Source of the DNA: Syntrophus aciditrophicus SB
Lineage (GTDB): Bacteria; Desulfobacterota; Syntrophia; Syntrophales; Syntrophaceae
NCBI RefSeq assembly: GCF_000013405.1
Contig: NC_007759.1
Coordinates: forward strand, 3,039,001-3,103,000
Reading direction: 5' to 3'
DNA: 64,000 bases
Of the stretch, positions 411 to 14,964 are shown in pieces. A model generated the notes under the pieces. The model saw only the letters and a program-made list of their open reading frames with translations, did no database searches and was not told where the DNA came from. Both the position numbers and the translations under genes were made by a program. How positions within the stretch are numbered: position 1 is the stretch's first letter; each line of letters begins with the position of its first letter.

Positions 411-995
411 TCAGGGCGCCACGAGTCCCATCGTCAGGACGAAAGCCGCCTGGAGGGCCTCCGTCGGACAGAGAGGGAAGCATTCCTTGCAGGCCATGCA
501 TTCCTTCGCGGCGATCTCCGGAATAAAGCTGATCTCCTTCCGAATCCCCCGGTCGACGAAGCCGATGGCGTTCTTCTTCTTGACCTCGGCGCAGTACCGC
601 ACACAGAGGCCGCAATGGATGCAGAAGGACGCTTCCTTTTCGAAACGGTTCCGGTCCGCCCCGTATTCTCTGGCCAGCTCCTCCAGGACGAAGGAATCCG
701 GCGCGTGAGCCAGCAGGAGTTCCAGAATCATCTTGCGGATCCGGTCGATCTTCTCCGATCGGGTCCTGACAACGAGATTATTTTCCACCGGATATACGCA
801 GGAGACCACGAGTCTCGACGAACCGCGGCTCTCCAGTTCCACAATGCAGAGGCGGCAGGCCCCGAAAGGCTCCAGTTTCTCATGGTGGCACAGCGTCGGA
901 ATGAAGATCCCCGCACTTTTCGCCGCCTCCAGAATCGTCATTCCCTTCTCGGCACGAACCTCTTTGCCGTCTATCTGTAAAAGGATTTCACTCAT
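411..995 (-). CDS. bamI: BamI-like [2Fe-2S]/[4Fe-4S] electron-transfer subunit (NuoG N-terminal type)
   Basis: A 194-residue iron-sulfur protein matching the N-terminal part of NuoG/HoxU. A plant-type [2Fe-2S] ferredoxin domain (first 80 residues; CHHEKLEPFGACRLC cysteines) is followed by two four-cysteine clusters, CIHCGLCVRYC near residue 123 and CMACKECFPLC near residue 167. There is no molybdopterin domain, as in the short electron-transfer subunits of NAD-linked bifurcating complexes. The start overlaps the bamH stop (ATGA), indicating translational coupling. It is the last gene of the bam cluster and would pass electrons between the NuoF-like subunit and the Hdr-like part. The name rests on synteny with bamB-I; the fold assignment itself is secure. 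Confidence 0.85.
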   Translation of the reverse strand: MSEILLQIDGKEVRAEKGMTILEAAKSAGIFIPTLCHHEKLEPFGACRLCIVELESRGSSRLVVSCVYPVENNLVVRTRSEKIDRIRKMILELLLAHAPDSFVLEELAREYGADRNRFEKEASFCIHCGLCVRYCAEVKKKNAIGFVDRGIRKEISFIPEIAAKECMACKECFPLCPTEALQAAFVLTMGLVAP

Positions 996-2920
996 GATTC
1001 TTTACCCCCTCTGACGATCTTTCTCGCTTCCCCGGAAACTGGAGGCGGAACCGGCTCGCCGGAAATCTTCCTTACCGCGTTGAAGCGGGGGGGACATACT
1101 TCAAAGCAGGTCCCACATTTCGTGCATTTCTCCTGGTCGATGATGCTGACCAGGTCTTTGCCGCCGTCAATCGCCCCGGCAGGGCACTTCTTGACGCACA
1201 GCTGACACGCCCGGCACTGTTCCGGATCGATGACGTAGGCGATCAGCTCCTTGCAGGACAGCGCCGGACATCTCTTCTCCTTAATGTGAGCCTCGTATTC
1301 ATCCCGGAAGTACTGCAGCGTGCTCAAAAAGGGATTGGGGGCGCTTTTGCCCAGGGCGCACAGGGAGGCTTCCTGGGCAGTCTCGGCCAGCGCCTCCAGA
1401 AGTTCGATGTCGCCCTCTCCGCCTTTCCCTTCGGTGATGCGGGTCAGGATGTTGTCCATCTGCCTTAAGCCCTCACGGCAGGGAACGCATTTGCCGCACG
1501 ATTCATCGGTAAGAAACTTGACGAAGTACCGGGCCGTATCCACCATGCAGGTATCTTCATCCATGACAATCATTCCGCCGGAGCCCATCATGGAACCCGC
1601 CGCGGTCAGCTCGTCAAAACCGACCGGCAGATCCAGCAGGGACTCGGGGATGCATCCCCCCGACGGCCCACCGGTCTGGACCGCCTTGAACTTCTTCCCG
1701 CCGGGAATGCCGCCGCCGATCTTGAAAACGATGTCCCGCAGCGATATCCCCATGGGCACTTCCACCAGCCCGGTATTGGCGATCTTGCCCACCAGAGAGA
1801 AGATCTTCGTCCCCTTGCTGCTTTCCGTTCCAATGGAGGTAAACCAGTCGGCCCCCTTGTTGATGATCAGCGGCACATTCGCCCAGGTCTCCACGTTGTT
1901 CAGCACGGTGGGATGGCCCCAGAGGCCGACCACATTAGAGCGGACATACTTCGGTCGGGGCTCTCCCGCCCGGCCCTCTATGGAGGTCATCAGGGCCGTC
2001 GATTCACCGCAGACAAACGCCCCGGCCCCCTGGTTCACGAACACCCTGAAATTATAACCGGAACCAAAGATGTTTTCTCCCAGCAGACCACAGGCTTCCG
2101 CCTGCTGAATCGCCAGGGTGATATTCTCCACCGCCAGGGGATATTCGTGACGGACGTAAATGTACCCCTCCTGAGCGCCGATGGCGTACCCGCCGATGAT
2201 CAGCCCCTCGAGGACGGAATGCGGGTTGCCTTCAAGAACCGCCCGATCCATAAACGCCCCGGGGTCGCCCTCGTCGGCGTTGACGATGACGTACTTCACC
2301 GGATCGGGAGCATTGCGGGAACCTTCCCACTTCACGCCCGCGGGAAAGCCGGCGCCTCCCCTTCCGCGGAGGTTCGCCTTCTTGACTTCCTCCAGGACCT
2401 CCACCGGAGTCATCGAACCCAGGGCCTCGCCCAGGGCGGAATAGCCTCCGTTGGCCAGGTAGTCGTCGATGTTTTTGGAATCGATTTTTATGTTGTTGCA
2501 GATCACATTCCGTTCCTGATTCCGGTAAAAGGAGATGTCGTACTCATGAACCGCTTTCTCTCCCGTGGCGGGATCAACGTAGAGCAGGCGGTCAACGACC
2601 TTCTTCTCTTTGACGGTCTGCGAGATGATCTCGGGAACGTCTTCGGGCATAACCTGGAGGTAGCAGATCTCCTCGGGATAGATCACCACCACGGGCCCTC
2701 GTTCACAAAATCCCGGACATCCCGTCCCCTTGGTATCCACGGTCGCCGCCAGGCCCTGCTTTTCAATCTCCGCCTTAAAGGCCGCAATGACCTCCAGAGC
2801 GCCGGAAGCCACGCAGCCGGAGCCGGCGCAGATGGAAATGCAGGGTTTGTCCGGATCTCTTCTGGATAGTATTTCCTGCCTGAAGCCCTCTAATTCTTCA
2901 GGCGAATTTAATCGCGTCAT
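992..2920 (-). CDS. bamH: BamH-like NADH-binding flavoprotein subunit (NuoF type)
   Basis: A 642-residue fusion. Its thioredoxin-like [2Fe-2S] domain at the N-terminus (CISICAGSGC and GCPGFCERGP) precedes the NuoF core with FMN/NADH-binding signatures (RGRGGAGFPAGVKWE, NADEGDPGAFMDR). Next comes the NuoF [4Fe-4S] motif ESCGKCVPC, then a C-terminal ferredoxin with two clusters (CRACQLCVKKCP, CTKCGTCFEVCP). The layout is that of NADH-dependent subunits in bifurcating hydrogenases and the Bam complex. Start ATG follows GGGGAAG. It sits between bamG and bamI with a 9-base gap and a 4-base overlap. Inferred role: NAD(H) entry or exit point of the Bam complex. Confidence 0.88.
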   Translation of the reverse strand: MTRLNSPEELEGFRQEILSRRDPDKPCISICAGSGCVASGALEVIAAFKAEIEKQGLAATVDTKGTGCPGFCERGPVVVIYPEEICYLQVMPEDVPEIISQTVKEKKVVDRLLYVDPATGEKAVHEYDISFYRNQERNVICNNIKIDSKNIDDYLANGGYSALGEALGSMTPVEVLEEVKKANLRGRGGAGFPAGVKWEGSRNAPDPVKYVIVNADEGDPGAFMDRAVLEGNPHSVLEGLIIGGYAIGAQEGYIYVRHEYPLAVENITLAIQQAEACGLLGENIFGSGYNFRVFVNQGAGAFVCGESTALMTSIEGRAGEPRPKYVRSNVVGLWGHPTVLNNVETWANVPLIINKGADWFTSIGTESSKGTKIFSLVGKIANTGLVEVPMGISLRDIVFKIGGGIPGGKKFKAVQTGGPSGGCIPESLLDLPVGFDELTAAGSMMGSGGMIVMDEDTCMVDTARYFVKFLTDESCGKCVPCREGLRQMDNILTRITEGKGGEGDIELLEALAETAQEASLCALGKSAPNPFLSTLQYFRDEYEAHIKEKRCPALSCKELIAYVIDPEQCRACQLCVKKCPAGAIDGGKDLVSIIDQEKCTKCGTCFEVCPPRFNAVRKISGEPVPPPVSGEARKIVRGGKES

Positions 2921-2929
2921 AATCTTCCC

Positions 2930-3382
2930 CTACTCGTATTTTTTTAACACATCGATGGTCTTGCTCGGTGTCGCCTTGCCGTATACCTTCCCGTCGATTT
3001 CCATCACGGGACCCAGGGCGCAGCAGCCCAGACAGTTCACCGTTTCCAGACTGAACTTCAAATCCAGGTCCGTCTCCCCCGGTTTGATGCCCGTCATCTC
3101 TTCCACGGTGTCCAGGACACGGTTCGCTCCACGGACGTGACAGGCCGTTCCCAGGCAGACATGAACCTGATGGCGACCTTTGGGAACCGTGCTGAAGACC
3201 TTATAAAAGGTCGCGGCATGACGCACCGTGGTAAGCGGAACCTGGAGCTTTTCACTGACCCGATCCAGCGCTTCCTTGGGAAGCCAGTGATTCTCCTCCT
3301 GGATATCCAGCAGGATCTGAATGAGCGCACTGGAGGCACCATGATGCTTTTCGATAATCTGATCGATTCTCTCGTTATCCAT
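2930..3382 (-). CDS. bamG: BamG-like [2Fe-2S] subunit (NuoE type)
   Basis: A 150-residue NuoE-family protein with a helical N-terminus and a thioredoxin-like domain. Its four cluster cysteines are visible as CLGTAC (near residue 80) and CLGCC (near residue 116), the usual C-x4-C...C-x3-C pattern. NuoE proteins carry one [2Fe-2S] cluster and work with NuoF. AGAAGGATAACG upstream of ATG supports the start. About 100 bases holding a strong palindrome separate it from bamF. The neighbours make it the bamG position of the class II benzoyl-CoA reductase operon. Confidence 0.88.
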   Translation of the reverse strand: MDNERIDQIIEKHHGASSALIQILLDIQEENHWLPKEALDRVSEKLQVPLTTVRHAATFYKVFSTVPKGRHQVHVCLGTACHVRGANRVLDTVEEMTGIKPGETDLDLKFSLETVNCLGCCALGPVMEIDGKVYGKATPSKTIDVLKKYE

Positions 3383-3483: not shown

Positions 3484-4257
3484 TCAAGCCAGGGCGTAAC
3501 GCTTCTGTTCTACATCGTACCGGACCAGACCGTGCTTCGATGACGTATTCATATGCCGTGACACGGCTGACGGCGTCAGGCCCAACCGTTGTGCGATCTC
3601 TCCCGTGGAAAGAGGCTGCTGCCGCAGGAGGGACATAATCTCGCTGATCGTCAGCTTGTCGCCGATCAGGTCTTCGAAGATCCGGTTCACCTCGTCGCTG
3701 TTGAAAAAGGCTTCCACATCTTCTCTCGTTTTCAGGTCCGGAGACAATCTCAACCGTTCCCTTTCCACCAGCCGGATGGAGGGGATCAATCGCGTCGCCG
3801 CTTCAAGTCCGGCGGCCAGCGTATCGTTCGCGATCCCTTCCGCGACGCCGAGCGGCCCCATCGCTTTCACATTCTTCTCGATGTCGTTCATGGTTTCGGC
3901 AAACCGGATCCCCTCGCCGGCGGAGATGAACTCGATCCTCAGCCTTTCGGGGTTCAATCCGATGTGCTCCAGCATTTTTCCGGCAATGAGAACCGTGCTC
4001 AGGGCATGGTAATTCCCATGCGTGATGTAGTTGCATTCCCCCAGGTGACAACCGATAACGAACACCCCGTCCGCCCCCTTCGAGAAAGCCCTGAATATAT
4101 GGGTTAAATCGACTCTCCCGGAACACATGACCCGGATGAGCCGGATATCGGTCGCATATTGCAGTCTGGAAACTCCAGCCAGGTCAGCTGCGCCGTATCC
4201 TCACCACTGGCAGACGAAACCAAGTATCTTGGGTTTAAATTCCAGTCCTGTCGTCAT
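3484..4257 (-). CDS. bamF: BamF-like selenoprotein: MvhD domain fused to a winged-helix domain
   Basis: A 257-residue protein read through an in-frame TGA at 4201-4203 (codon 19). ATG at 4257 follows GGGGTGAGGAAGA. The N-terminus reads MTTGLEFKPKILGFVCQW-U-GYGAADLAG, where MvhD/FlpD proteins have C-x-W-C, so TGA stands for the second cluster ligand. Residues 1-140 are the MvhD fold (later CSGRVD and GCHLGECNY motifs), which transfers electrons between HdrA and NuoF/hydrogenase modules. Residues 205-257 form an ArsR/MarR-like winged helix (LSTGEIAQRLGLTPSAVSRHM). Selenocysteine here is known for BamF of aromatic-degrading anaerobes. Starting at the later ATG (4128) would delete the cluster-binding motif, so a pseudogene is unlikely. 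Confidence 0.9.
4166..4178 (-). promoter_or_regulatory. SECIS-like hairpin of bamF
   Basis: Perfect 5-bp stem CTGGA/TCCAG closing a GTT loop, starting 23 bases after the TGA codon inside the coding sequence. Bacterial SECIS elements are small hairpins with the apical loop roughly 16-37 bases after UGA, often with G and U in the loop. This hairpin fits that position. Base pairing is seen directly; recognition by SelB is inferred. Confidence 0.6.
4201..4203 (-). other. Selenocysteine codon (TGA) of bamF
   Basis: In-frame TGA as codon 19, between FVCQW and GYGAADLAG. The frame is open and MvhD-like on both sides, and the site matches a conserved cluster cysteine of the family. Confidence 0.9.
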
Positions 4258-4317: not shown

Positions 4318-7300
4318 TCAGACCGCCGAATCGATTAATTGCAGTAGTTCTTCCTCCTGAACCGCGGCCTCGACCTGGTTCAGGATCTCTTCATCGGTAA
4401 AGTGCTTCAGGGAAACCGCCGAGGTCGGACACACGGTGTTGCAGACCCCGTCGCCCTTGCAGAGAACGGGATTCACCCTCGCCCTTCTGCCCCGCGGCGA
4501 CTCGTAAAAGTCAATGGCCCCGTACGAACAGACCGTGATGCAGGCCCCGCAGGAAACGCACTTCTCCTCGTCCACCCGGGCCACGGCCCCCGATGCCGTC
4601 ACGATATCCCGGGACAGCAGCGTCAGCACCCGCCCGGCCGCACCGTAAGCCTGGCTGATCGTTTCCGGGATATGCTTGGGATACTGGGCCATGCCACAGA
4701 GATAGACGCCGTCCGTCCCGAACTCCACCGGCCGCAGCTTGACGTGGGCTTCCTTGAAAAAGCCGTCCGGATTCAACGTGACCTTGAACAGGCTCGCGAC
4801 GTCCGGTGTCGCCGCCGATGGAATCGTCGCGGCGGACAGAACGAGGCAGTCGGCATCCAGGGCCAGCCGCTGACCGAGAATCGGATCGGCCACCGTCACC
4901 CGCAGAACGGGTTTGCCTTCCTCCACAACGGCTTCCACCTGCGGGGCATCCTCCGGCTCGAAGCGGATGAACTTCACATCCTTCTCCGACGCCTCCCGGT
5001 AATAATCCTCGGCATAACCGTAGGTCCTCATATCCCGGAAGAGAATGGAAACATCCATCTCCGGATTTTTCTCCTTCAGTTTCAGGGCATTCTTGACGGC
5101 ATGGCTGCAGCAGATCTTGCTGCAGTAATTTCTCTCCTCGTTGCGGCAACCCACGCACTGGATCATCACGACACCGCCGGCGTTAAGGACCTTTTCGTCG
5201 CCCTTCGCGATCCGTTCCTCCAATTCCAGCTGGGTCATGACCCGTTCATCCTGACCATAGAGGTATTCCGTAGGCTTGTATTCCTCGGCGCCGATGGCGA
5301 TGACCGTCGCCCCATGACGGATCTCCGCCGTGCCTCTGCCCGATTTCACCCTGGTCACGAAATTACCGATATACCCGCCGGCCTCCGTGATGGTCGCGCC
5401 CGTATACACATGCACCAGAGGATGACGATAGACTTTCCCGATCAGATCGTTCAGGTAGGCCTGAACATCCATCCCTTCCAGGGTGTAATGGATCCGCCTT
5501 GCCGTTCCCCCCAGTTCCTTCTCCTTTTCCACCAGGTAGACCTCATGCCCCTGGTCCGCAATCGAAAGGGCGCAGGTCATCCCGGCAATTCCGCCGCCGA
5601 CCACCAGGGCCGCGTTATCCACGGGCAGATCATACTCCGGCAATGGCTCCAGGCTGCGGGCGCGCGCCACCGACATCCGGATCAGATCCTTCGCCTTCTG
5701 CGTGGCGTCTTCCTTCTCCTTGGCGTGAACCCAGGAGTTATGCTCCCGGATGTTCGCCATCTCGTAATAATATTGATTCAAACCCCCTTCCCGGACGGTG
5801 TCGCGAAACAGGGGCTCCAGGGTCCGGGGAGAGCAGGCGGCAACCACCACGCGGTTGAGCCCTTTCTCCCGAATCATGTCCGTGATTTCCCGGGAAGAAT
5901 TCGTGGCGCAGGAAAAAAGCTGCTCCTGGGCGTAGACCACATTGGGCAGACTCTGGGCGTACTCCACCGCTTCCGGCACGTTGACGATCCTTCCGATATT
6001 GGCCCCGCAGTGGCACACAAAGACGCCGATCCGCGGCTCTTCCCCGGAGACATCCCTCTCCGGGGGATAAACTCTCGCCGTGGACAGCTTTCCCCGCCGG
6101 TAATTCAGCAGTTCGCCGCACTGCGAACCGGCCGCGCTGGCCGTCAAAACCGAATCGGGGATATCGGCAGGCCCCAGGAATCCGCCGCTGACAAAGATGC
6201 CGGCCTGGCTGGTCTCCATGGGATTGGTCGAATCGGTCAGGCAGAATCCGTGGGCGTTGAGGTCGATCCCGAACTTGCCCGCCATCGCCTTCGCTTCCTC
6301 CGGAGGATTCAGGCCGACGGACAGAACCACCATCTCGAAATCCTCTTCCTTGACCCCTTCATCGGGTGTGGAATACCGGATCGTGACGTTTTTCGTGACC
6401 GGGTCCTCCCGAACAATGGACACGTAGCTGCGGATAAAACGGACCCCGGGAAGATCCGCCGTTCTCTGGTAGAACCGCTCGAAATCCTTCCCGAAGGAAC
6501 GAATGTCGTTGTGGAAGATCGTGCATTCCGCGGTGGCGTCATGCTCCTTGGTGAGGATCACCTGCTTCTGGTTATAGGTGCAGCAGACCCCTGAACAATA
6601 GCTGTTCTCGCCCTCGGTCACCCGGCGGGAACCGACGCAGGAAATCCACGCGATTTTATGGGGGTGCTTCAGATCGGAGGCACGCAGGATCTCGCCGCCG
6701 TAGGCCCCCGTGGCGGACAGAAGCCGCTCGAAATCCATGCTGGTGACCACGTTGGCGAATTCGCCGTAATGATATTCCGGGTTCGCTCCGGGGTCATAGG
6801 GCTCCAGTCCGGTCGCCAGAATGACCGCCCCCACATTGATCTCCACCTTCTGCGGCTTCTGGCCGAAATCAATGGCGCCGGCCTGACAGACTCTTTCGCA
6901 GAGGGTGCATTTCTTCTCTTTAAGATAGAGGCAGCTCTCATCGATGTAGGCCACCAGAGGAAACGCCTGCGAAAAATAGACATGGACGGCTTTGCTGTAT
7001 GAAATATCCTGATTAAACCGGTCCGGATACTGCACCGGGCAGTATTCCGTACACGTACCGCAACCCGTGCATTTGTCTTCAATGATATATCTGGGCTTTT
7101 TAATCAGCGTCACCGTGAAATCTCCCGCCTCCCCGACTATACTGTCCACATCGGTATAGCTCAGGATCTCGATGTTTGGATGCCGGCCGACCTCGGCCAG
7201 TTTCGGTGAGAGAATTCACATGGAGCAGTCGTTGGTCGGAAAGGTCTTGTCCAACTGGGCCATATGCCCGCCGATGCTGGGTCCCTTCTCTACCAGGTAA

Positions 7301-7422
7301 ACCTTGAAGCCCGCCGTGGCCAGGTCGAGAGAGGCCTGAATACCGCTGATCCCGCCGCCGACGACCATGACGTCTCCGAAGCCGCCTTCTCCGAAGCTTT
7401 TATAAATCTGTTCTTTTTCCAT
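4318..7422 (-). CDS. bamE: BamE-like selenoprotein, HdrA-type flavoprotein
   Basis: A 1034-residue HdrA homologue read through a TGA at 7216-7218 (codon 69). The N-terminal FAD motif [16 protein letters not shown] is followed by [22 protein letters not shown], where HdrA normally has CSMCILSPK. Next come ferredoxin motifs [12 protein letters not shown] and [11 protein letters not shown], an internal HdrA-like segment ([16 protein letters not shown]), a second Rossmann motif [16 protein letters not shown] near residue 520, and C-terminal [11 protein letters not shown] and [11 protein letters not shown] clusters. It is therefore a long, HdrA-duplicated form. HdrA flavin is the electron-bifurcating site in heterodisulfide reductase; the same role is inferred here. 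Selenocysteine at this position is known in HdrA/BamE selenoproteins. Confidence 0.92.
7185..7198 (-). promoter_or_regulatory. SECIS-like hairpin of bamE
   Basis: GGCCGAGGTCGGCC pairs as a 5-bp GC stem (GGCCG/CGGCC) around an AGGT loop. The loop lies about 23-26 bases after the UGA codon, in the range of bacterial SECIS elements, and carries the GGU-type apical sequence found in several of them. Function is inferred from position and pairing. Confidence 0.65.
7216..7218 (-). other. Selenocysteine codon (TGA) of bamE
   Basis: In-frame TGA, codon 69, in the context PTNDCSM-TGA-ILSPK. HdrA-like sequence continues uninterrupted on both sides, and the residue replaced is a conserved HdrA cysteine. 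Confidence 0.92.
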
Positions 7423-7451: not shown

Positions 7452-8603
7452 CTAAAGCAATTCCGAAATCACTTCCGAGATCTCTTTGACTTCAATCTTG
7501 TCGTCCAGACCCATGGTGACCCGGCTGTCCTCGAAATTGGTGATGCAGTACGGACAGGCCGTGACCAGCACTTCCGCTCCAACGCCAACGGCCTGATCGA
7601 TCCGCAGATCGCAGAAGCGCTCTCCCTTGACCGTCTCCATCCAGATCCGGCCGCCACCGCCGCCGCAGCAAAGGCTCGCAACGCGGTTTTCAGGCATCTC
7701 CATCAACTCCAGACCGGGAACGGCCTGCAACACATTGCGGGGCTCGTCATAAATGCCGTTGTGACGCCCCAGGTAACAGGGGTCATGCCAGGTGACCTTC
7801 TTCGCAAATTCCCCGTTCAGCGTCAGCCGGCCCGAATCGATGAGTTCCTGCAGGTACTGGGTGATGTGCACCACCTCGAAGCGCACCATGAACTCGGGAT
7901 ACTCGTTCTTGAAGGTATGGTAGCAGTGAGGCGAAGAAACCAGAATCCTCTTCACACCGGCATCGATGAAGGCCTTGATGTTCTCCTTCGCCAGGCGCTG
8001 GAACACCTCCTCGTCGCCTGTCTTGCGGATGCTCTCTCCACAGCAGACCTCCTTGTCGCCCAGGATCCCGAAATGGACCCCGGCCGCATTCAGGATCTTG
8101 GCCGTGGCTGCGGCAACCCTCTTCATCCTCGGGTCATAGCTGGGATAGCAGCCCGGAAAATAGAGAATCTCCATCTCCTTACTGAAGGGTTCAACGGACA
8201 GACCCCTGGCCCAGTCCGCTCTCTTGCTCCGTTCTTCATTCAAGGGGTTGCCTGAGCCGACGAGGCTGCCGGCTATCGTCTTGATGGGACGGACGGAATG
8301 GGGAAATACCCCGTATTCCGTGGCAATCCTCCGCAGGGCCACCCCGGATTCAATCTGTTTCACGTCCCGCGGACACACCTGAGGACATCTTCCGCAGGTG
8401 GTGCAACGCCACATCTCTTCACTCTCAATGTCCGTCAGGCCGAATGTCGCCTCCCGGACCAGCTTGCGCATACTGAACGTCGTCACCCGGTTCCAGGGAC
8501 AGACACTGTCGCACAGTCCGCATTGAAAGCATCTCTTGAAGGCGTCTCCACCATGCGCCTTTATCTCTGTAATAATCTCCTTGAAGGGGGCTATAGTCTC
8601 CAC
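7452..8603 (-). CDS. bamD: BamD-like HdrD-type iron-sulfur oxidoreductase
   Basis: A 383-residue protein. Two N-terminal [4Fe-4S] motifs (CFQCGLCDSVCP, CTTCGRCPQVCP) precede two CCG domains (YFPGCYPSYD...VCCGES and HDPCYLGRH...SLCCGGGGG). The CCG pair is the hallmark of HdrD/HdrB and glycolate-oxidase GlcF-like subunits and binds a non-cubane cluster in HdrB. Translation starts at GTG (8603) after GGAAGGATACCG. Only 29 bases separate it from bamE. In the Bam complex this subunit would connect the HdrA-like BamE with the BamBC catalytic unit; that wiring is inferred. Confidence 0.88.
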   Translation of the reverse strand: METIAPFKEIITEIKAHGGDAFKRCFQCGLCDSVCPWNRVTTFSMRKLVREATFGLTDIESEEMWRCTTCGRCPQVCPRDVKQIESGVALRRIATEYGVFPHSVRPIKTIAGSLVGSGNPLNEERSKRADWARGLSVEPFSKEMEILYFPGCYPSYDPRMKRVAAATAKILNAAGVHFGILGDKEVCCGESIRKTGDEEVFQRLAKENIKAFIDAGVKRILVSSPHCYHTFKNEYPEFMVRFEVVHITQYLQELIDSGRLTLNGEFAKKVTWHDPCYLGRHNGIYDEPRNVLQAVPGLELMEMPENRVASLCCGGGGGRIWMETVKGERFCDLRIDQAVGVGAEVLVTACPYCITNFEDSRVTMGLDDKIEVKEISEVISELL

Positions 8604-8708: not shown

Positions 8709-9248
8709 TCAGGATTTTTGCGTCAGTCGGGCAGCGGTACGCATCATCTTGTCCCACCCGAATTTGTCCGCTATGGCGGTCAACGCGGTCTCCAGAGCAT
8801 CTATCTCCACCTGCTCTTCCACTTCTATCTCCCGTTCCTCGTACTTCAGGGCATCACGCACGCACCAGTGGACACACATCGGCTCTTCCAGGGGCGGATC
8901 ACTTTGACACATATCGCATCCCAGCGGGAGACCGGAGTCGGGTTCGACAAACCTGCCCCGGGACGGACAGGCAGCGCGGCAGAACTCGCATTCGTCGTAC
9001 GTCCTGTCATCAATATGATAGCTGATTCTGCCCCCGCATTCGGCCGGGGTATACTCCCCTGCGAATACCGGCAGAAAGATATCCCTCAGCGGGAGTCGAA
9101 CGACCTGGACACGTGACTTTGCCGGACTATTACTGCTCCATTGCGGTGTGGAGTGAAAAGCGGAACACATGACTTCACATGTGCGACAGCCGTTGCACTT
9201 CTCCGCATCAACGGTAATCCTCTTGACTATCTTCTTAATCTTGGCCAT
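8709..9248 (-). CDS. bamC: BamC-like polyferredoxin partner of the AOR-type subunit
   Basis: A 179-residue soluble iron-sulfur protein of the dimethyl-sulfoxide-reductase electron-transfer type. Cysteine groups are visible at CNGCRTCEVMC (near residue 18), CEFCRAAC, and CDMCQ...CVHWC, enough for three [4Fe-4S] clusters. Proteins of this kind pair with AOR-family oxidoreductases; BamC forms the BamBC core of class II benzoyl-CoA reductase. It follows bamB by 134 bases and precedes bamD by 105 bases. I see no membrane segment or signal peptide. Confidence 0.87.
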   Translation of the reverse strand: MAKIKKIVKRITVDAEKCNGCRTCEVMCSAFHSTPQWSSNSPAKSRVQVVRLPLRDIFLPVFAGEYTPAECGGRISYHIDDRTYDECEFCRAACPSRGRFVEPDSGLPLGCDMCQSDPPLEEPMCVHWCVRDALKYEEREIEVEEQVEIDALETALTAIADKFGWDKMMRTAARLTQKS

Positions 9249-9382: not shown

Positions 9383-11443
9383 TCAATATCCCCACTTATA
9401 CATACGTTCTTTCCTATACTCTTCAAGCTCTTCCTCGGTCGGGGGGGGAACCTTCTTCAATATTCCTTTCTCTTCCAATTCGTCCGCGACATACCCGAGA
9501 TCCAGCTCTTCCAGGCGAACGCGAGTGGGAACACCCTCGTCGGTCCACCCCTTGAAATGGTAATAAGTGGTCAGGAGTTCTTCCTCGAGCTCCGGAAAAC
9601 GGAACTTCCAATGATCTGCAGGCGGATTGTCATCGGCCCGAGTCATGCCCCTTCTCATGTTGAAGGCCCGATGCAGATTACGAATCCGGTGAGCCACCCT
9701 CCTGTGCTCAAATTCATCCAGATTCAGTCCTGTTGCGGCATTCACGAACTTATAGTAATTGTGGCAATGAAAGGGCGGCTTGAAGCAGAACCCCGACATG
9801 CCGGAACAGAATCCCAGGGAGTCATCGTTGACGTGGTTCTCCTCCATCCAATCCACAATCTCCGAAGCGATGGGCGGAGTCGGATAATAGGGTGCCGCGT
9901 TCTTGTCGCCTTTGGGTTCCCAGTCCAGAATATATTGTTTGAATCGTTCAAAGGGAACGTGAGGCCAGTCCCTGATCCACTCTTCCCGATCTTCATATTT
10001 GCGGAAGGCGGCCTGGGGCCAGTTTCCTTCGATCGAGGTGATACTCTGCTTTTCGCTCGTGGCAAACATAAGAAAATAGAGGGGATCCAGCATTCCCAGT
10101 TTGATGTTCATCTGCTCCACACCCTTGATGAGGTTGTGCGCATAAGCCTCCGCACCCTTACCGATTTTCTCGCTTGCCTGCTTGGTGCCCAGGCCCAGAA
10201 TTTTGCCAATTCCCTCACCCTTGACAAGCCGGTCAAGCAGCCAGTAGAAGACCCCACTTTTATCCTCCGGGGGCGGACAGGGAGGATAGTCATCCGTTCC
10301 AGCAAAATCTTCCTCCGTCAGAATCCCGTCCTTTCTCAGTTCCACGGCAAAGGCCATCACCTGAGGAGTTGAGTAGGAATCCAAACCGTAATCAAAGGTA
10401 CGCTCGATGAATTTCCAGCTCCATTCCAGGTCATCTATGCCCGATCCAAAGAGATAGGAAATTTTTGAAAAGCATTTCGCCATATAGGGGGCTCCGTCCT
10501 TGCGCATAATCAATGCCCCGCATTGCGACGGACAGTTGAAGCAGCTTATCATCCGCCGCACAGACTCCTCCTGGCTCTTTTCCCAACTTTCTTCAATTTC
10601 ATCGGTCCAGAAGTCTTTTCTTCGGTAGCGGGCATTCCCCCAGGCGAAATTCTGCGTATGCCACTTATCTTCCGCATCTCTCATCAGTTGCGGCGACCCG
10701 AGACTGTCATGAATGGCCTCGACATGTCTGTGCGACAGGGGATTAGCGTTGCGGTGAATGATGTAGGTTCGCGCCTCCTCGAGGTGCTTGATAAAGGCAG
10801 GTCCGTCGGCAAGATTAACTTCCTTTGTTCCCCGAACCGCAATGGCCTTGATTTTCTTGTCGCCCATGACGGCGCCGCCTCCGAGTCTGCTTGCGCTCCC
10901 CTTGTCCATCTCGATGCTGGCAAAAAGAACCCCGTTTTCCGCTGCAGGACCGATAGCGGCAACCTGGATCTTCGGATCGTTCAGTTCTTCCTTAAGAAGT
11001 TCCTGAACTTCACGGGCGCCCTTTCCCGCCAGATGCGATGCATCCCTTATTTCGACCTTGTCATTGTTGATCCAGATATATACCAACTCGGGTGACTTGT
11101 TCCTGAAGATGATTTTGTCGTATCCGGCGTACTTCAGTTCCGGTGCGAAAAACCCTCCTGCGGTAGGATAGCAGATCAGGTTGGACACTGGGGAAATGGT
11201 AACCACAAAGGTGCGATTTGCTCCGAAAATCGGCGTACCACTCAAAAGACCATTAGTGAATATCAGCAGATTTTCCGGATCAAATGCCTTGGTCTCGGGC
11301 GTGGTCCTGTCCCAGAAAATCTTGAGGCTGCTCCCCACCCCACCAAAAAAGTTTTCAGCCGTTTTCGGGTCCGACTGCACCCGTTCAATATTCCCGGTTG
11401 ATAAGTCAATTTCCAGGTAATATCCTGTCTCTCCGTATCGCAT
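9383..11443 (-). CDS. bamB: BamB-like tungsten AOR-family catalytic subunit
   Basis: A 686-residue aldehyde:ferredoxin oxidoreductase-family protein. The N-terminal domain (GETGYYLEIDLSTGNIERV, FGGVGSSLKIFWD) binds the bis-pyranopterin in this family. [4Fe-4S] ligands are seen as CFNCPSQC (Cys301, 304, 308) with a further Cys324. The length and the surrounding bamC-I order identify it as BamB, the benzoyl-CoA-reducing subunit, rather than a classical AOR of about 600 residues. BamB reduces benzoyl-CoA to cyclohexa-1,5-diene-1-carboxyl-CoA. ATG is preceded by GGAGGTAAG. Substrate cannot be settled from sequence alone because the adjacent ligase is not a typical benzoate-CoA ligase. Confidence 0.88.
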   Translation of the reverse strand: MRYGETGYYLEIDLSTGNIERVQSDPKTAENFFGGVGSSLKIFWDRTTPETKAFDPENLLIFTNGLLSGTPIFGANRTFVVTISPVSNLICYPTAGGFFAPELKYAGYDKIIFRNKSPELVYIWINNDKVEIRDASHLAGKGAREVQELLKEELNDPKIQVAAIGPAAENGVLFASIEMDKGSASRLGGGAVMGDKKIKAIAVRGTKEVNLADGPAFIKHLEEARTYIIHRNANPLSHRHVEAIHDSLGSPQLMRDAEDKWHTQNFAWGNARYRRKDFWTDEIEESWEKSQEESVRRMISCFNCPSQCGALIMRKDGAPYMAKCFSKISYLFGSGIDDLEWSWKFIERTFDYGLDSYSTPQVMAFAVELRKDGILTEEDFAGTDDYPPCPPPEDKSGVFYWLLDRLVKGEGIGKILGLGTKQASEKIGKGAEAYAHNLIKGVEQMNIKLGMLDPLYFLMFATSEKQSITSIEGNWPQAAFRKYEDREEWIRDWPHVPFERFKQYILDWEPKGDKNAAPYYPTPPIASEIVDWMEENHVNDDSLGFCSGMSGFCFKPPFHCHNYYKFVNAATGLNLDEFEHRRVAHRIRNLHRAFNMRRGMTRADDNPPADHWKFRFPELEEELLTTYYHFKGWTDEGVPTRVRLEELDLGYVADELEEKGILKKVPPPTEEELEEYRKERMYKWGY

Positions 11444-11614: not shown

Positions 11615-13078
11615 TTAACGTATGACACCTATCATCTTCCAGTAAGGCACGGCCACCAGCAGGGAAATGAAGGCTGAAGCAATGTAGATCAGACCGAACA
11701 TCAGCACATGAGACGGCGCCCAACCCCTGCCCTGAATCATCCCTTCACCCATCAGGAGAAAAGGCTGCTGGTAGGACAGCAGGAAAAAGTTGATGGCGAT
11801 CAGATAGGCCATGGTCACGGTCAGCGGATGATAACCGAAATCATTAAAGAGCGGGATCAGCATGATAATGGTCAGCGCACAGGTGGTGAAGCCCCAGGGA
11901 ACGTCAACGAAGCGGATAACCATGAGCCCCAAGGTGATGACCAGCATGAACAGTAGGGGAGAACCCGCCATGGACATGATGGGCCCTTTGATCAGGGGTC
12001 CGAACCAGGCGGAGATTCCGGAAACTCCGAAGATGGGAGGCAGGGCTACGGCGATACCGAAGAAGCAGACTACGTCCCAGTTGATGCCGGCGCTGATATC
12101 CGGACCGGTAATGATGCGGAACATAACGAAGAGGAACAGAGCGAACAGGGCTGTGGCCGCGGTGGGAATTCCATGCTGGTTTTCTGTGAAAAACATTAAC
12201 AGAGAGCCGACAAGGATAAGAAGGGAAACGATTTCATCCTTGGACATTGGACCCAGTTTCTTGTATTCCTCCTTGAACATGTCGGAGCTAATGGCAATGG
12301 CTTCTTTCGGCTTGGCAAAGATATAGGCAAAGAAAACGTACAAGATGGTTACTACAAACCAGGGCAGGGCCAGAATCTTGAACCAGTCGGCAAAATTGGC
12401 CATGGGTTTTATTTCGGGGGGAAAAAATCCCTGCATGATCGGCCCCGAGAGGGAGCCGGTCAACCATCCGGTCCCAGGTAAGAGAGCCATACCCCAGGCC
12501 AGCAAGCAGATATAGGCCGATCCCTTGGAGCGGAATTCCACTTTACAGGCTTCCACAATCCCAATAGCAATGGGAACGACAATCGCCACACGGACGACGA
12601 TGGACGGCGTCAAGGCGGAAAGTGCAACGCCGATCACCAGCCAGCTGATCGCCAAGCCAAGCCAGGTCGCGGGAAACGTCTTCAGAACCATATAAGCGAT
12701 GCGTTTTCCCAGACCCGTTTTTTGCAGAACAAAACCAAAATATAGTGCAGGAATCAGGACCCAGACGGCTGATGAAGTGAAGCCGCCCATGACGACCCCA
12801 TATATTTGCGGGGGTGCTTTGAAGGGAACTTTGCCCGGGAACACCAGACCTGCTTTGTGGGCAAAAAACAGGGCCAAGGTAAGCCCCAGGATGATGGAAG
12901 TACCCGACATGAAGGGCAGGTTTCCGGGGCGGAAGATCCACATCCCCAGGCCCGCAACAACGGTACCCATGACATAATGCCCTAAAGGGGACAGCCCCGG
13001 GGCAAACGGCTGGGCTATAGCGATTAACAAGCCGGCTACAGCAATAACAATGACTCCTAACGTCTTACCATTTTGCAT
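11615..13078 (-). CDS. DASS/SLC13-type anion transporter
   Basis: A 487-residue integral membrane protein with about 12 hydrophobic segments, resembling the divalent anion:sodium symporter family (CitT/DASS), which carries di- and monocarboxylates. The start is placed at ATG 13078 because GGGAGGGAGT lies just upstream; a longer frame from 13174 adds 32 residues without a ribosome site. It lies between the aryl-AMP ligase and bamB on the same strand, so uptake of an aromatic acid, or exchange with a product, is the natural inference. No substrate-defining residue is recognised, and succinate or a similar dicarboxylate cannot be excluded. Confidence 0.75.
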   Translation of the reverse strand: MQNGKTLGVIVIAVAGLLIAIAQPFAPGLSPLGHYVMGTVVAGLGMWIFRPGNLPFMSGTSIILGLTLALFFAHKAGLVFPGKVPFKAPPQIYGVVMGGFTSSAVWVLIPALYFGFVLQKTGLGKRIAYMVLKTFPATWLGLAISWLVIGVALSALTPSIVVRVAIVVPIAIGIVEACKVEFRSKGSAYICLLAWGMALLPGTGWLTGSLSGPIMQGFFPPEIKPMANFADWFKILALPWFVVTILYVFFAYIFAKPKEAIAISSDMFKEEYKKLGPMSKDEIVSLLILVGSLLMFFTENQHGIPTAATALFALFLFVMFRIITGPDISAGINWDVVCFFGIAVALPPIFGVSGISAWFGPLIKGPIMSMAGSPLLFMLVITLGLMVIRFVDVPWGFTTCALTIIMLIPLFNDFGYHPLTVTMAYLIAINFFLLSYQQPFLLMGEGMIQGRGWAPSHVLMFGLIYIASAFISLLVAVPYWKMIGVIR

Positions 13079-13146
13079 TATACTCCCTCCCCACCCCTTT
13101 ATTTTAAATAAACCAGACTCAAATGGGTCTTGCGCGTGTTTATCAA

Positions 13147-13186
13147 GGGACGATGTAATTATGATTGACCACAATCACATCGTCCC
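13147..13186. repeat. Intercistronic hairpin between ligase and transporter
   Basis: Perfect 10-bp outer arms GGGACGATGT/ACATCGTCCC enclose an inner GATTG-acca-CAATC stem. It sits in the 186-base gap between the ligase stop and the transporter start. No T-run follows on the minus strand, so differential mRNA stability or an operator is more plausible than strong termination. Confidence 0.55.
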
Positions 13187-13264: not shown

Positions 13265-14926
13265 TTACTTCTTTGCTGCCTGCTCTTGCTCCAGCATTTT
13301 TATGATTCTCTCCTTGAGCTCCCTCTTCAGGATCTTGCCCGCAGGGCTCAAGGGAAATTCCGATACGAACTCCATCCGTTCAGGCCACTTGAACTTGGCA
13401 ATATTCTGCTCCTGCAGAAAATCGCATATTTCCTTAAATGTAACGGTCTGGCCGTCCTTCGGAATAACCCAGGCACAGGCCCTCTCAACAAACACCGGAT
13501 CCGGCATGGCTACGATCGCTACGTTCTTTACTTTGGGATGGGAAAGGATTAAATGTTCCACCTCTTCCACATTGATCTTTTCTCCTCCACGATTAATCAC
13601 ATCCTTTTTCCGGCCCTCCGTGAAGATGAACCCAGCTTCATTCATCCTGACCAGGTCGCCCATCTTATAGAAGCCATCCGGCGTAAAAGCGCTCTTGTTA
13701 TACTCCGGCGCATTGTAGTAGCCCCGGATCGTATAGGGGCCCCGAACTGCCAGTTCACCCTGCTGTCCAACAGGAACGGTGTTTCCATTGTCATCGATGA
13801 CTTTTATCTCATCAGCCGGAGAAACGGGTCTGCCGGAACTCGTCATGATCATGTCCTCCGGGTCATCAAGGCGGGTATAATTGAGCAGCCCTTCCGCGGT
13901 TCCATATACCTCCTGTGGTATGACCTTCCATTTTTCTCGTAGGGCTTTACGCAGTTCGGGTGCAAGCCTGGCGCCTCCATTCTGAATCACTTTCAGCGAA
14001 CTGTAGTCGAATCCTTTCCAGTCTTCACTGTTCAGCCACATGACATCGACAGGGACGCCGGAAGCAACATAGGTAACCTTCTCCTTTTCGATGAGAGAGA
14101 AACAGCTTTTGGCATCAATGGAACCGGAAAGCACCCCTTTACCTTTAAGAAACCAGCAGCCAAGAAAACCGAAGGAGGCAAGGGTATAGTTGTGCGCAAA
14201 GGGCAGGATGCCCAGAAATACGTCCTCGCTGGTAAATCCGGCATAAATGGCACTTTGCAGCGCGTTATAGACATAATCATTGTGAGTTCTGGGAATCAGT
14301 TTCGGAAGGGCCGTTGTTCCCCCGGACAGGAGCATGAGGGCCACATCGTAAGGATCCGGGCGGAACTTCTTGAGGTAGTCTGCGGGATTGTCAACATCTA
14401 CGGGCTGGGCGATCAGTTCATCGATGGAAATCATCCCCTCCGGAACATTTGAACCTGTTGCGAGAATGTACTTGAGACTCGGGGCTTTTTTCTGCACATC
14501 CATAGCCATTTCGGCGTAGTTGAAACGGCGATACTCTGTAGGGATCAGGTACCCCACAGCATCACTCATTTTGAAAAAATGTTCTATTTCCGTATGCCGA
14601 TGCGCGGCAAGGGCCAGGATCGGAATGACACCGATCTTGGTCAGCGCGAACAGGGAGTACACGCACGCCTCAATGCTGGGAAGTTGAAATACCACCCGAT
14701 CTCCCGGCTTCAATCCTACTTTAAGGAATTGAATGGCAAGCCTGTCAATCTTAGCCCCCAACTCGCGATACGTAACCCTCGCACCTTCGCAGATCAGGGC
14801 TTCCTTGTCGGGAACCGCCGCGATCGATTCCTCCAGTTTCTCGTTAAGTGTTTTTTCCTCCCAATATCCGGCTTCCCGGTAACGCTTTACATACTCTTCC
14901 GGCCATGGAACAAAACCTGGTAACAT
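13265..14926 (-). CDS. EntE/DhbE-like aryl-acid AMP ligase
   Basis: A 553-residue adenylate-forming enzyme. Motifs include the P-loop-like LSGGTTALPKLIPRTHNDY, YGTAEG (A5), GDLVRM (A7), GRKKDVINRGGEKI (A8) and the C-terminal lysine in PAGKILKRELKE (A10). Similarity is to 2,3-dihydroxybenzoate/salicylate-AMP ligases, whose AHN acyl-pocket motif is present (LPFAHNYTLASFG). No aryl-carrier protein or NRPS gene is nearby, so it probably makes an aryl-CoA for the adjacent Bam enzymes. In a Geobacter-type layout this is the bamY position. The start is set at the second ATG (14926) because GGAGGG lies 7 bases before it and abuts the upstream ATG at 14932. A sigma54 promoter lies just upstream. Confidence 0.8.
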   Translation of the reverse strand: MLPGFVPWPEEYVKRYREAGYWEEKTLNEKLEESIAAVPDKEALICEGARVTYRELGAKIDRLAIQFLKVGLKPGDRVVFQLPSIEACVYSLFALTKIGVIPILALAAHRHTEIEHFFKMSDAVGYLIPTEYRRFNYAEMAMDVQKKAPSLKYILATGSNVPEGMISIDELIAQPVDVDNPADYLKKFRPDPYDVALMLLSGGTTALPKLIPRTHNDYVYNALQSAIYAGFTSEDVFLGILPFAHNYTLASFGFLGCWFLKGKGVLSGSIDAKSCFSLIEKEKVTYVASGVPVDVMWLNSEDWKGFDYSSLKVIQNGGARLAPELRKALREKWKVIPQEVYGTAEGLLNYTRLDDPEDMIMTSSGRPVSPADEIKVIDDNGNTVPVGQQGELAVRGPYTIRGYYNAPEYNKSAFTPDGFYKMGDLVRMNEAGFIFTEGRKKDVINRGGEKINVEEVEHLILSHPKVKNVAIVAMPDPVFVERACAWVIPKDGQTVTFKEICDFLQEQNIAKFKWPERMEFVSEFPLSPAGKILKRELKERIIKMLEQEQAAKK

Positions 14927-14964
14927 ATCCATCCCTCCATAAAATGTTTTTTTAATTTAGGAAT

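Follow-up and report, generated by a model that had tools for sequence, protein, structure and literature searches.

An in-frame TGA at codon 69 of the BamE gene of Syntrophus aciditrophicus SB is almost certainly decoded as selenocysteine (Sec), as the sequences of the gene and its relatives indicate. BamE is probably a genuine selenoprotein in which Sec69 serves as the Cys197-type ligand of HdrA and completes the cluster of the domain at residues 456-600, a reading based on alignment and domain layout. Sec in the BamE/HdrA family is genuine, usual for these proteins and previously documented. The only part for which we found no published account is an alternation at residue 71 that goes with the Sec or Cys state. 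The window, which is the whole stretch of 64,000 nucleotides analysed here, spans G000:C1:3039001-3103000 in a genome of one contig and 3,179,300 bases and contains two candidate selenoprotein genes:

4318-7422, minus strand: BamE, a fused (two-flavin-domain) HdrA-like protein of 1034 aa with one internal TGA (from translation, NCBIfam HdrA2 and PDB HdrA chains)
7216-7218, minus strand: TGA, putatively read as Sec69 of BamE (= Cys197 of 5odc_A; translation and alignment)
7183-7200, minus strand: SECIS-like hairpin of BamE, 7 bp, loop AGGU, 15 nt after the TGA
3484-4257, minus strand: BamF, an MvhD domain plus a C-terminal winged-helix-like domain, one internal TGA
4201-4203, minus strand: TGA, putatively read as Sec19 of BamF (CQWU; translation and alignment)
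4166-4178, minus strand: SECIS-like hairpin of BamF, 5 bp, loop GUU

The TGA at codon 69 of 1034 is the sole internal stop of the BamE frame, in the context NDCSM-U-ILSPK (NDCSMUILSPK when read through), and the 965 residues 3' of it align with relatives far beyond chance. PDB HdrA chains matched BamE with a best E of 5.9e-193, and in the alignment U69 falls opposite residue 197 of 5odc_A, a Cys in the solved HdrA chains. The initial annotation had placed this TGA on the known Cys/Sec site of HdrA, and the alignment bears it out. Chain 9sfi_A has an X at residue 197, also aligned to U69, which suggests that it is a solved Sec form of HdrA. Against NCBIfam, BamE scored 945.5 bits for HdrA2 (cut-off 1100) and 738.5 and 670.5 bits for two HdrA models (cut-offs 1400 and 1300). 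All three scores are below cut-off, and we read this as the fused Bam-type HdrA falling outside those models.

We surveyed the site in the window, 79 loci that are close relatives by design, 80 regions hand-picked among the matches listed (49 without a stop, 31 with TGA) and four further regions of the same genome. Other listed rows were left out, some for nearness to a contig end, and the sample is uneven, with some rows near-copies. The survey yielded 219 sites, 213 of them distinct, second-half matches included. Relatives with TGA at the same HdrA codon belong, by their record titles, to several phyla, and neither TAA nor TAG occurred at any of the 213 distinct aligned sites. Of 167 distinct proteins over the score limit, 147 were long enough for a tree and 20 were dropped. 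Sec and Cys were both coded C at the site itself, and the tree of the BamE clade was made without residues 62-82.

Hairpins were compared with a null of synonymous recoding that preserved the protein and the local codon usage, with the stem pairing fraction as the statistic. For HdrA, the Sec forms gave 0.964 against a null of 0.656 (sd 0.015, n=100), while the Cys forms gave 0.632 against 0.612 (n=61), no excess. For MvhD, the Sec forms gave 0.921 against 0.601 (sd 0.017, n=96) and the Cys forms 0.514 against 0.506 (n=37), again no excess; these figures express strength and not exact probability, the sequences being related and non-independent. A plain folding-energy test agreed with the hairpin result for HdrA (mean z -1.31 for Sec, n=101; -0.01 for Cys, n=61), and the window BamE by itself gave z -1.23 (p 0.12). 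As a SECIS test for MvhD the folding-energy test failed (Sec +0.29, n=101; Cys -0.71, n=36), where the specific hairpin passed. An Rfam scan of the window gave zero matches. The genome encodes SelB (373.6 bits), SelA (615.3 bits) and tRNA-Sec (77.4 bits), all over cut-off. UGA codon 69 would thus be decoded by SelB and tRNA-Sec, aided by the hairpin 15 nt downstream, and we infer that Sec is incorporated in vivo. That both BamE and BamF are selenoproteins, as first annotated, fits the in-frame TGA and the state-specific hairpin in each and the decoding genes in the genome.

Among the 77 Sec-BamE, the codon just 3' of the Sec UGA was ATA in 48, against an Ile background of 25%, and ATC in 4, against 49%. 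At the same codon, the 28 Cys-BamE had ATC in 14, ATT in 9 and ATA in 5, and the window BamE has ATT (7213-7215). This bias may be a decoding context effect.

The proposed role of Sec69 follows from the domain layout of BamE, which has all the HdrA domains (FAD domain, inserted ferredoxin, N-terminal cluster domain and C-terminal ferredoxin), rearranged as a fusion. U69 falls within residues 18-394, which correspond to the HdrA flavin domain; residues 456-615 match the HdrA N-terminus, and the remaining features are as follows:

6886-7071, minus strand: inserted ferredoxin domain of BamE (Cys 118-179), 8 Cys, each in 147/147 rows
5623-6057, minus strand: HdrA N-terminal-type domain (residues 456-600; Cys 470, 472, 505, 530), proposed seat of the Sec69 cluster (alignment and Cys conservation)
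4618-5616, minus strand: second flavin half, without Cys at the Cys197 position (0/105 clade rows with Cys at residues 640-661)
4429-4560, minus strand: C-terminal ferredoxin domain (Cys 955-998; alignment and Cys conservation)

Cys470, Cys472, Cys505 and Cys530 are conserved in all 147 rows, and the second flavin half has a TLEGxDVQAYL-type sequence. According to PMC9012536, Cys197 of one HdrA copy is a ligand to the cluster held by the N-terminal domain of the second copy. Texts conflict on the location of the HdrA shuttle cluster, with one legend placing HA3 at the HdrA C terminus and PMC9012536 placing the Cys197 cluster in the N-terminal domain. BamE consists of two fused HdrA halves, the first with the Cys197 position (Sec69) and no N-terminal Fe-S domain in front, the second preceded by the N-terminal-type domain (456-600) and lacking the Cys197 position. 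Because the halves are complementary in this way, Sec69, which by homology takes the place of Cys197 as ligand to the [4Fe-4S] cluster of the HdrA N-terminal domain, most likely completes the cluster around Cys470/472/505/530 across halves, within one chain or across a BamE dimer. The residues E356 and K409 (5odc numbering, alignment-mapped), which have a bifurcation role in HdrA (PMC12054007), correspond to E232 and K286 in 147/147 rows; their second-half equivalents are E733 (133/147) and K777 (132/147).

An AlphaFold model of BamE built with 20 sequences had a mean pLDDT of 68.8 and a pTM of 0.56, with values below 50 at residues 51-73, so confidence is low around the site. Columns covarying with Sec/Cys near Cys505 and Cys530 were considered as contact evidence and set aside: the raw ranking was suggestive, the tree-aware test was weak (of the 7 highest-ranking distal columns, 3 lay no more than 12 residues from an N-domain Cys; shift-null 0.05), and several columns track ancestry and not the Sec state. 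Several 'Cys-type' residues, among them Thr531 and His535, are retained in L183, L184 and the L178 group even though these are Sec forms.

Two other accounts of the TGA were weighed. If it were a true stop, BamE would be made as a 68-residue fragment and a re-started C-terminal protein, and an in-frame alternative start is indeed present, the ORF caller opening at GTG 7149. However, the codon stays TGA throughout the 213 survey sites, hairpin retention at the nucleotide level is confined to the Sec forms, the genome has Sec-decoding genes, and a restart would lose the first flavin-binding motif; a true stop is thus very improbable. Sec69 might instead be the redox-active selenol partner of Cys66 and no cluster ligand, with NDCSMU forming a CxxU like that of thioredoxin-type selenoproteins. 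Cys66 is conserved in 147/147 rows and CxxU is the motif given for HdrA (PMC13188914), but PMC9012536 describes the equivalent Cys of the HdrA structure as ligating a cluster. In addition, no disulfide is needed for transfer from flavin to cluster, and we consider this role unlikely.

The initial annotation had further proposed that the two Sec residues meet at the contact point of BamE and BamF, where Sec69 and the BamF Sec would lie opposite one another between HdrA and MvhD and jointly tune transfer over the junction. Both Sec codons and hairpins are real, and Sec-BamE was never found with Cys-BamF among 73 paired rows of the BamE clade. Against this, Cys197, the homologous residue, is described as a ligand between two HdrA copies and not to MvhD (PMC9012536). 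Outside the clade, Sec-HdrA adjoins Cys-MvhD in 9 of 10 paired rows. Within it, 12 of the 26 Cys-BamE with a partner have Sec-BamF, so one Sec can occur without the other. On the role of the homologous site and the independent occurrence of the two Sec, we rejected Sec at the BamE-BamF contact, and we give joint tuning there little chance of being right. The MvhD [2Fe-2S] cluster passes electrons to the HdrA flavin. In a crystal structure the MvhD [2Fe-2S] cluster is more than 30 A from the FAD (PMC6019823), and in ElpC, an MvhD homologue, it is 25 A from the flavin in one state (PMC12350162). The BamF Sec, one of five Cys/Sec positions (16, 19, 45, 70, 75) conserved in 98/98 clade proteins, probably lies at the [2Fe-2S] site of BamF itself, which would exchange electrons with the same flavin. 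Thus the BamE Sec and the BamF Sec each appear to belong to a cluster of their own, both clusters serving one flavin, rather than to a shared contact. We infer the ligation of both clusters, the direction of electron flow and a benefit from selenium. Placing Sec69 on the Cys197-type cluster instead of the BamF contact alters the choice of mutant or spectroscopic test.

Pairs of BamE and BamF in the clade (105 rows) were Sec/Sec in 73, Cys/Sec in 12, Cys/Cys in 14 and Sec/Cys in none, with 6 rows having no BamF in reach. The 42 rows outside the clade were Sec/Cys in 9, Sec/Sec in 1, Cys/Sec in 9 and Cys/Cys in 13, with no partner in 10. Cys-BamE accounts for 28 of the 105 clade members, 11 of them beside BamB and Sec-BamF. 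Because of the 12 Cys/Sec rows, Cys in BamE does not simply come from a lack of Sec decoding. Strict coupling of the two Sec was rejected, as it runs in one direction only in the BamE clade (0/73) and is reversed outside it (9/10), and there are too few independent tree pairs for significance. The rows outside the clade with Sec-HdrA beside Cys-MvhD are L093, L096, L169, L189, L192-L195 and L207, several of which have the motif DCAMUIISPKL. In the window, the C-terminal winged-helix (ArsR-like) domain of BamF beyond its MvhD part is unexpected in an electron-transfer subunit.

BamE and BamF lie in a gene cluster whose other members, named by resemblance, are:

9383-11443, minus strand: BamB-like tungsten subunit (PDB 4z3w, E 6e-241), W-ligand Cys present, L/A/D at the E251/H255/E257 positions
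8709-9248, minus strand: BamC-like ferredoxin subunit (ORF and NCBIfam relatives)
7452-8603, minus strand: BamD-like, HdrD/HdrCB type (ORF and NCBIfam relatives)
2930-3382, minus strand: BamG-like, NuoE family (ORF and NCBIfam relatives)
992-2920, minus strand: BamH-like, NuoF family (ORF and NCBIfam relatives)
411-995, minus strand: BamI-like, NuoG/HoxU N-terminal type (ORF and NCBIfam relatives)

The class II benzoyl-CoA reductase gene set from BamB to BamI is thus complete in the window, as judged gene by gene from family relatives. The W-ligand Cys322 of the solved benzoyl-CoA reductase 4z3w corresponds to Cys324 of the window BamB. Glu251, His255, Glu257 and His260 of BamB, which form the Zn site and proton relay, correspond to L253, A257, D259 and H262, so that three of the four differ. 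These four residues have been called invariant (PMC12096430, section 17). Among 74 BamB-like matches that keep the His and Cys, Glu-x-Glu-His was found in 58. The genome's other copies have L-W-D-H (L017, near 2.88 Mb), E-C-E-H (L018) and E-T-E-H (L019). The Bam-like complex of the window may act on another acyl-CoA. Just upstream of the Bam-like genes are an aryl-acid AMP-ligase-like gene (13265-14932, minus strand) and a DASS-type anion symporter gene (11615-13174, minus strand), hinting at substrate uptake and activation. Elsewhere, an x-E-D-H subtype of BamB occurs mostly beside Cys-BamE (L131, L132, L060, L065, L141, L144-L146, L149, L150 and L184).

Five long BamE/HdrA homologs are encoded in the genome; four carry a single TGA and the fifth has TGC at the site. 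Six other BamE/HdrA matches are short and of ferredoxin type. Five BamF/MvhD homologs adjoin the long copies, with TGA at the CxW[U/C] site in four and TGC in one, and the Cys (TGC) BamF copy shares a cluster with the Cys BamE copy. No BamB match was found within the 18 kb examined around this Cys/Cys copy (L020, 10521, minus strand, G000:C1:142638-145715). Two other clusters of Bam-like genes in this genome, L018 and L019, carry almost identical BamE (tree branches near zero) and equally scoring BamF; their BamB are 56% and 61% identical to the window BamB, respectively.

The segment around Sec69 exists in two states. All 77 Sec69 rows of the clade have Leu71, with Val78 in 76 and Phe78 in one, and the Sec69 state also goes with Leu/Met75. 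The 28 Cys69 rows all have Glu71 and Cys78, and 27 of them have Phe75. No intermediates at residues 71 and 78 were found among the 105 proteins. The five genome copies show the same alternation, four with UILxPKLxEVGR and one with CIESPKFVECKR. Of the 30 Cys rows outside the clade, 25 have Leu71 and none has Glu71, so Glu71 is peculiar to Cys-BamE in this sample. The hairpin is formed by codons 75-80 and can thus account for the changes at residues 75, 78 and 79. We looked for a lower SECIS stem extending to codon 71 and found no such helix, and thus the hairpin does not account for residue 71.

The best tree has five Sec/Cys switches, and AU tests support at least two. These tests used 66 rows (28 Cys and 35 of the 77 Sec rows of the clade, with 3 outgroup rows) and excluded residues 60-90 and 495-540. 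The Cys rows as one clade were rejected (p 9e-5), as were the Sec rows (p 8e-5), while the Sec rows minus L183/L184 as one clade were not rejected (p 0.33). In the three groups tested, rows matched others of the same state at 0.89-0.90 over residues 62-82, against 0.61-0.75 to sister rows, and the effect was slight or absent in other segments. A short gene-conversion tract over segment 62-82 may be involved.

Cys-BamE is mostly beside x-E-D-H BamB (11 rows), and Sec/Leu71 is beside it just once. The BamB subtype was rejected as the sole cause of the residue-71 change: L138, L143, L147 and L148 are Cys/Glu71 with E-x-E-H BamB, and L184 is Sec/Leu71 with x-E-D-H. The change at residue 71 accompanies every supported switch and is not part of the hairpin. 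Our tentative reading, which could well be wrong, is that BamE has two all-or-none states of the ligand segment, that the hairpin makes Sec cost Cys78, and that the Glu71 carboxylate, two positions away from the ligand, and a selenolate ligand may therefore be alternative tunings of the same low-potential cluster. In the open-licence literature we found no mention of Sec/Leu71 alternating with Cys/Glu71. The two states provide matched natural variants, even within one genome (four Sec copies, one Cys), for comparing potential and activity. In the view of PMC12096430 (section 17), class II benzoyl-CoA reductase complexes push electrons to about -650 mV without ATP, and the clusters flanking the bifurcating flavin, with the reason for selenium on them, are part of that puzzle.

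Selenoproteins of these families have been recorded before. Zhang 2006 (PMC1794560) gave HdrA (4) and FrhD (4) for Syntrophus aciditrophicus, with operons carrying both, and these counts equal the TGA copies found here, four of five for each gene. The Sec-HdrA of Deltaproteobacteria and methanogens described there is, like BamE, an HdrA selenoprotein, in some operons with Sec FrhD/MvhD; the accessible parts of that paper do not tie the copies to Bam clusters and give no structural role. Desulfobacterium autotrophicum has Sec HdrA and Sec MvhD (PMC2702500), and a 2026 review (PMC13188914) gives frhA-frhD-hdrA operons along with HdrA carrying CxxU. BamE of Desulfococcus multivorans (dmul_C24500/10) was likewise named a UGA/SECIS selenoprotein in 2016 (PMC5109826), in a different organism and, in the accessible text, without a role for the residue.

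The Bam complex of Geobacter metallireducens has a bam gene set of the same kind as the window. Its selenoprotein list, as accessible in PMC1794560, includes FrhD and leaves out HdrA, unlike the Sec BamE of the window. We read the listed FrhD as BamF; with HdrA missing from the list, BamE there should be a Cys form. The complex of this organism reportedly has two Sec.

Parallels in layout are the fused HdrA3 and HdrA4 of ANME archaea and the fused HdrA of Moorella MetFV-HdrABC-MvhD (PMC9012536), whose halves, like those of BamE, are complementary, one lacking the N-terminal domain and the other Cys197. As described there, those fusions have the N-terminal domain in the first half, whereas BamE has the Cys197-type residue first and the domain before its second half. 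BamE also has Sec at the site, unlike the fused HdrA in the accessible parts of that paper. HdrA and MvhD of HdrABC-MvhAGD (PDB 5odc) are homologous to BamE and BamF over nearly all domains, but HdrA of 5odc is single-half, has Cys197 and is coupled to HdrBC and a hydrogenase, while BamE goes with BamB, BamC and BamD.
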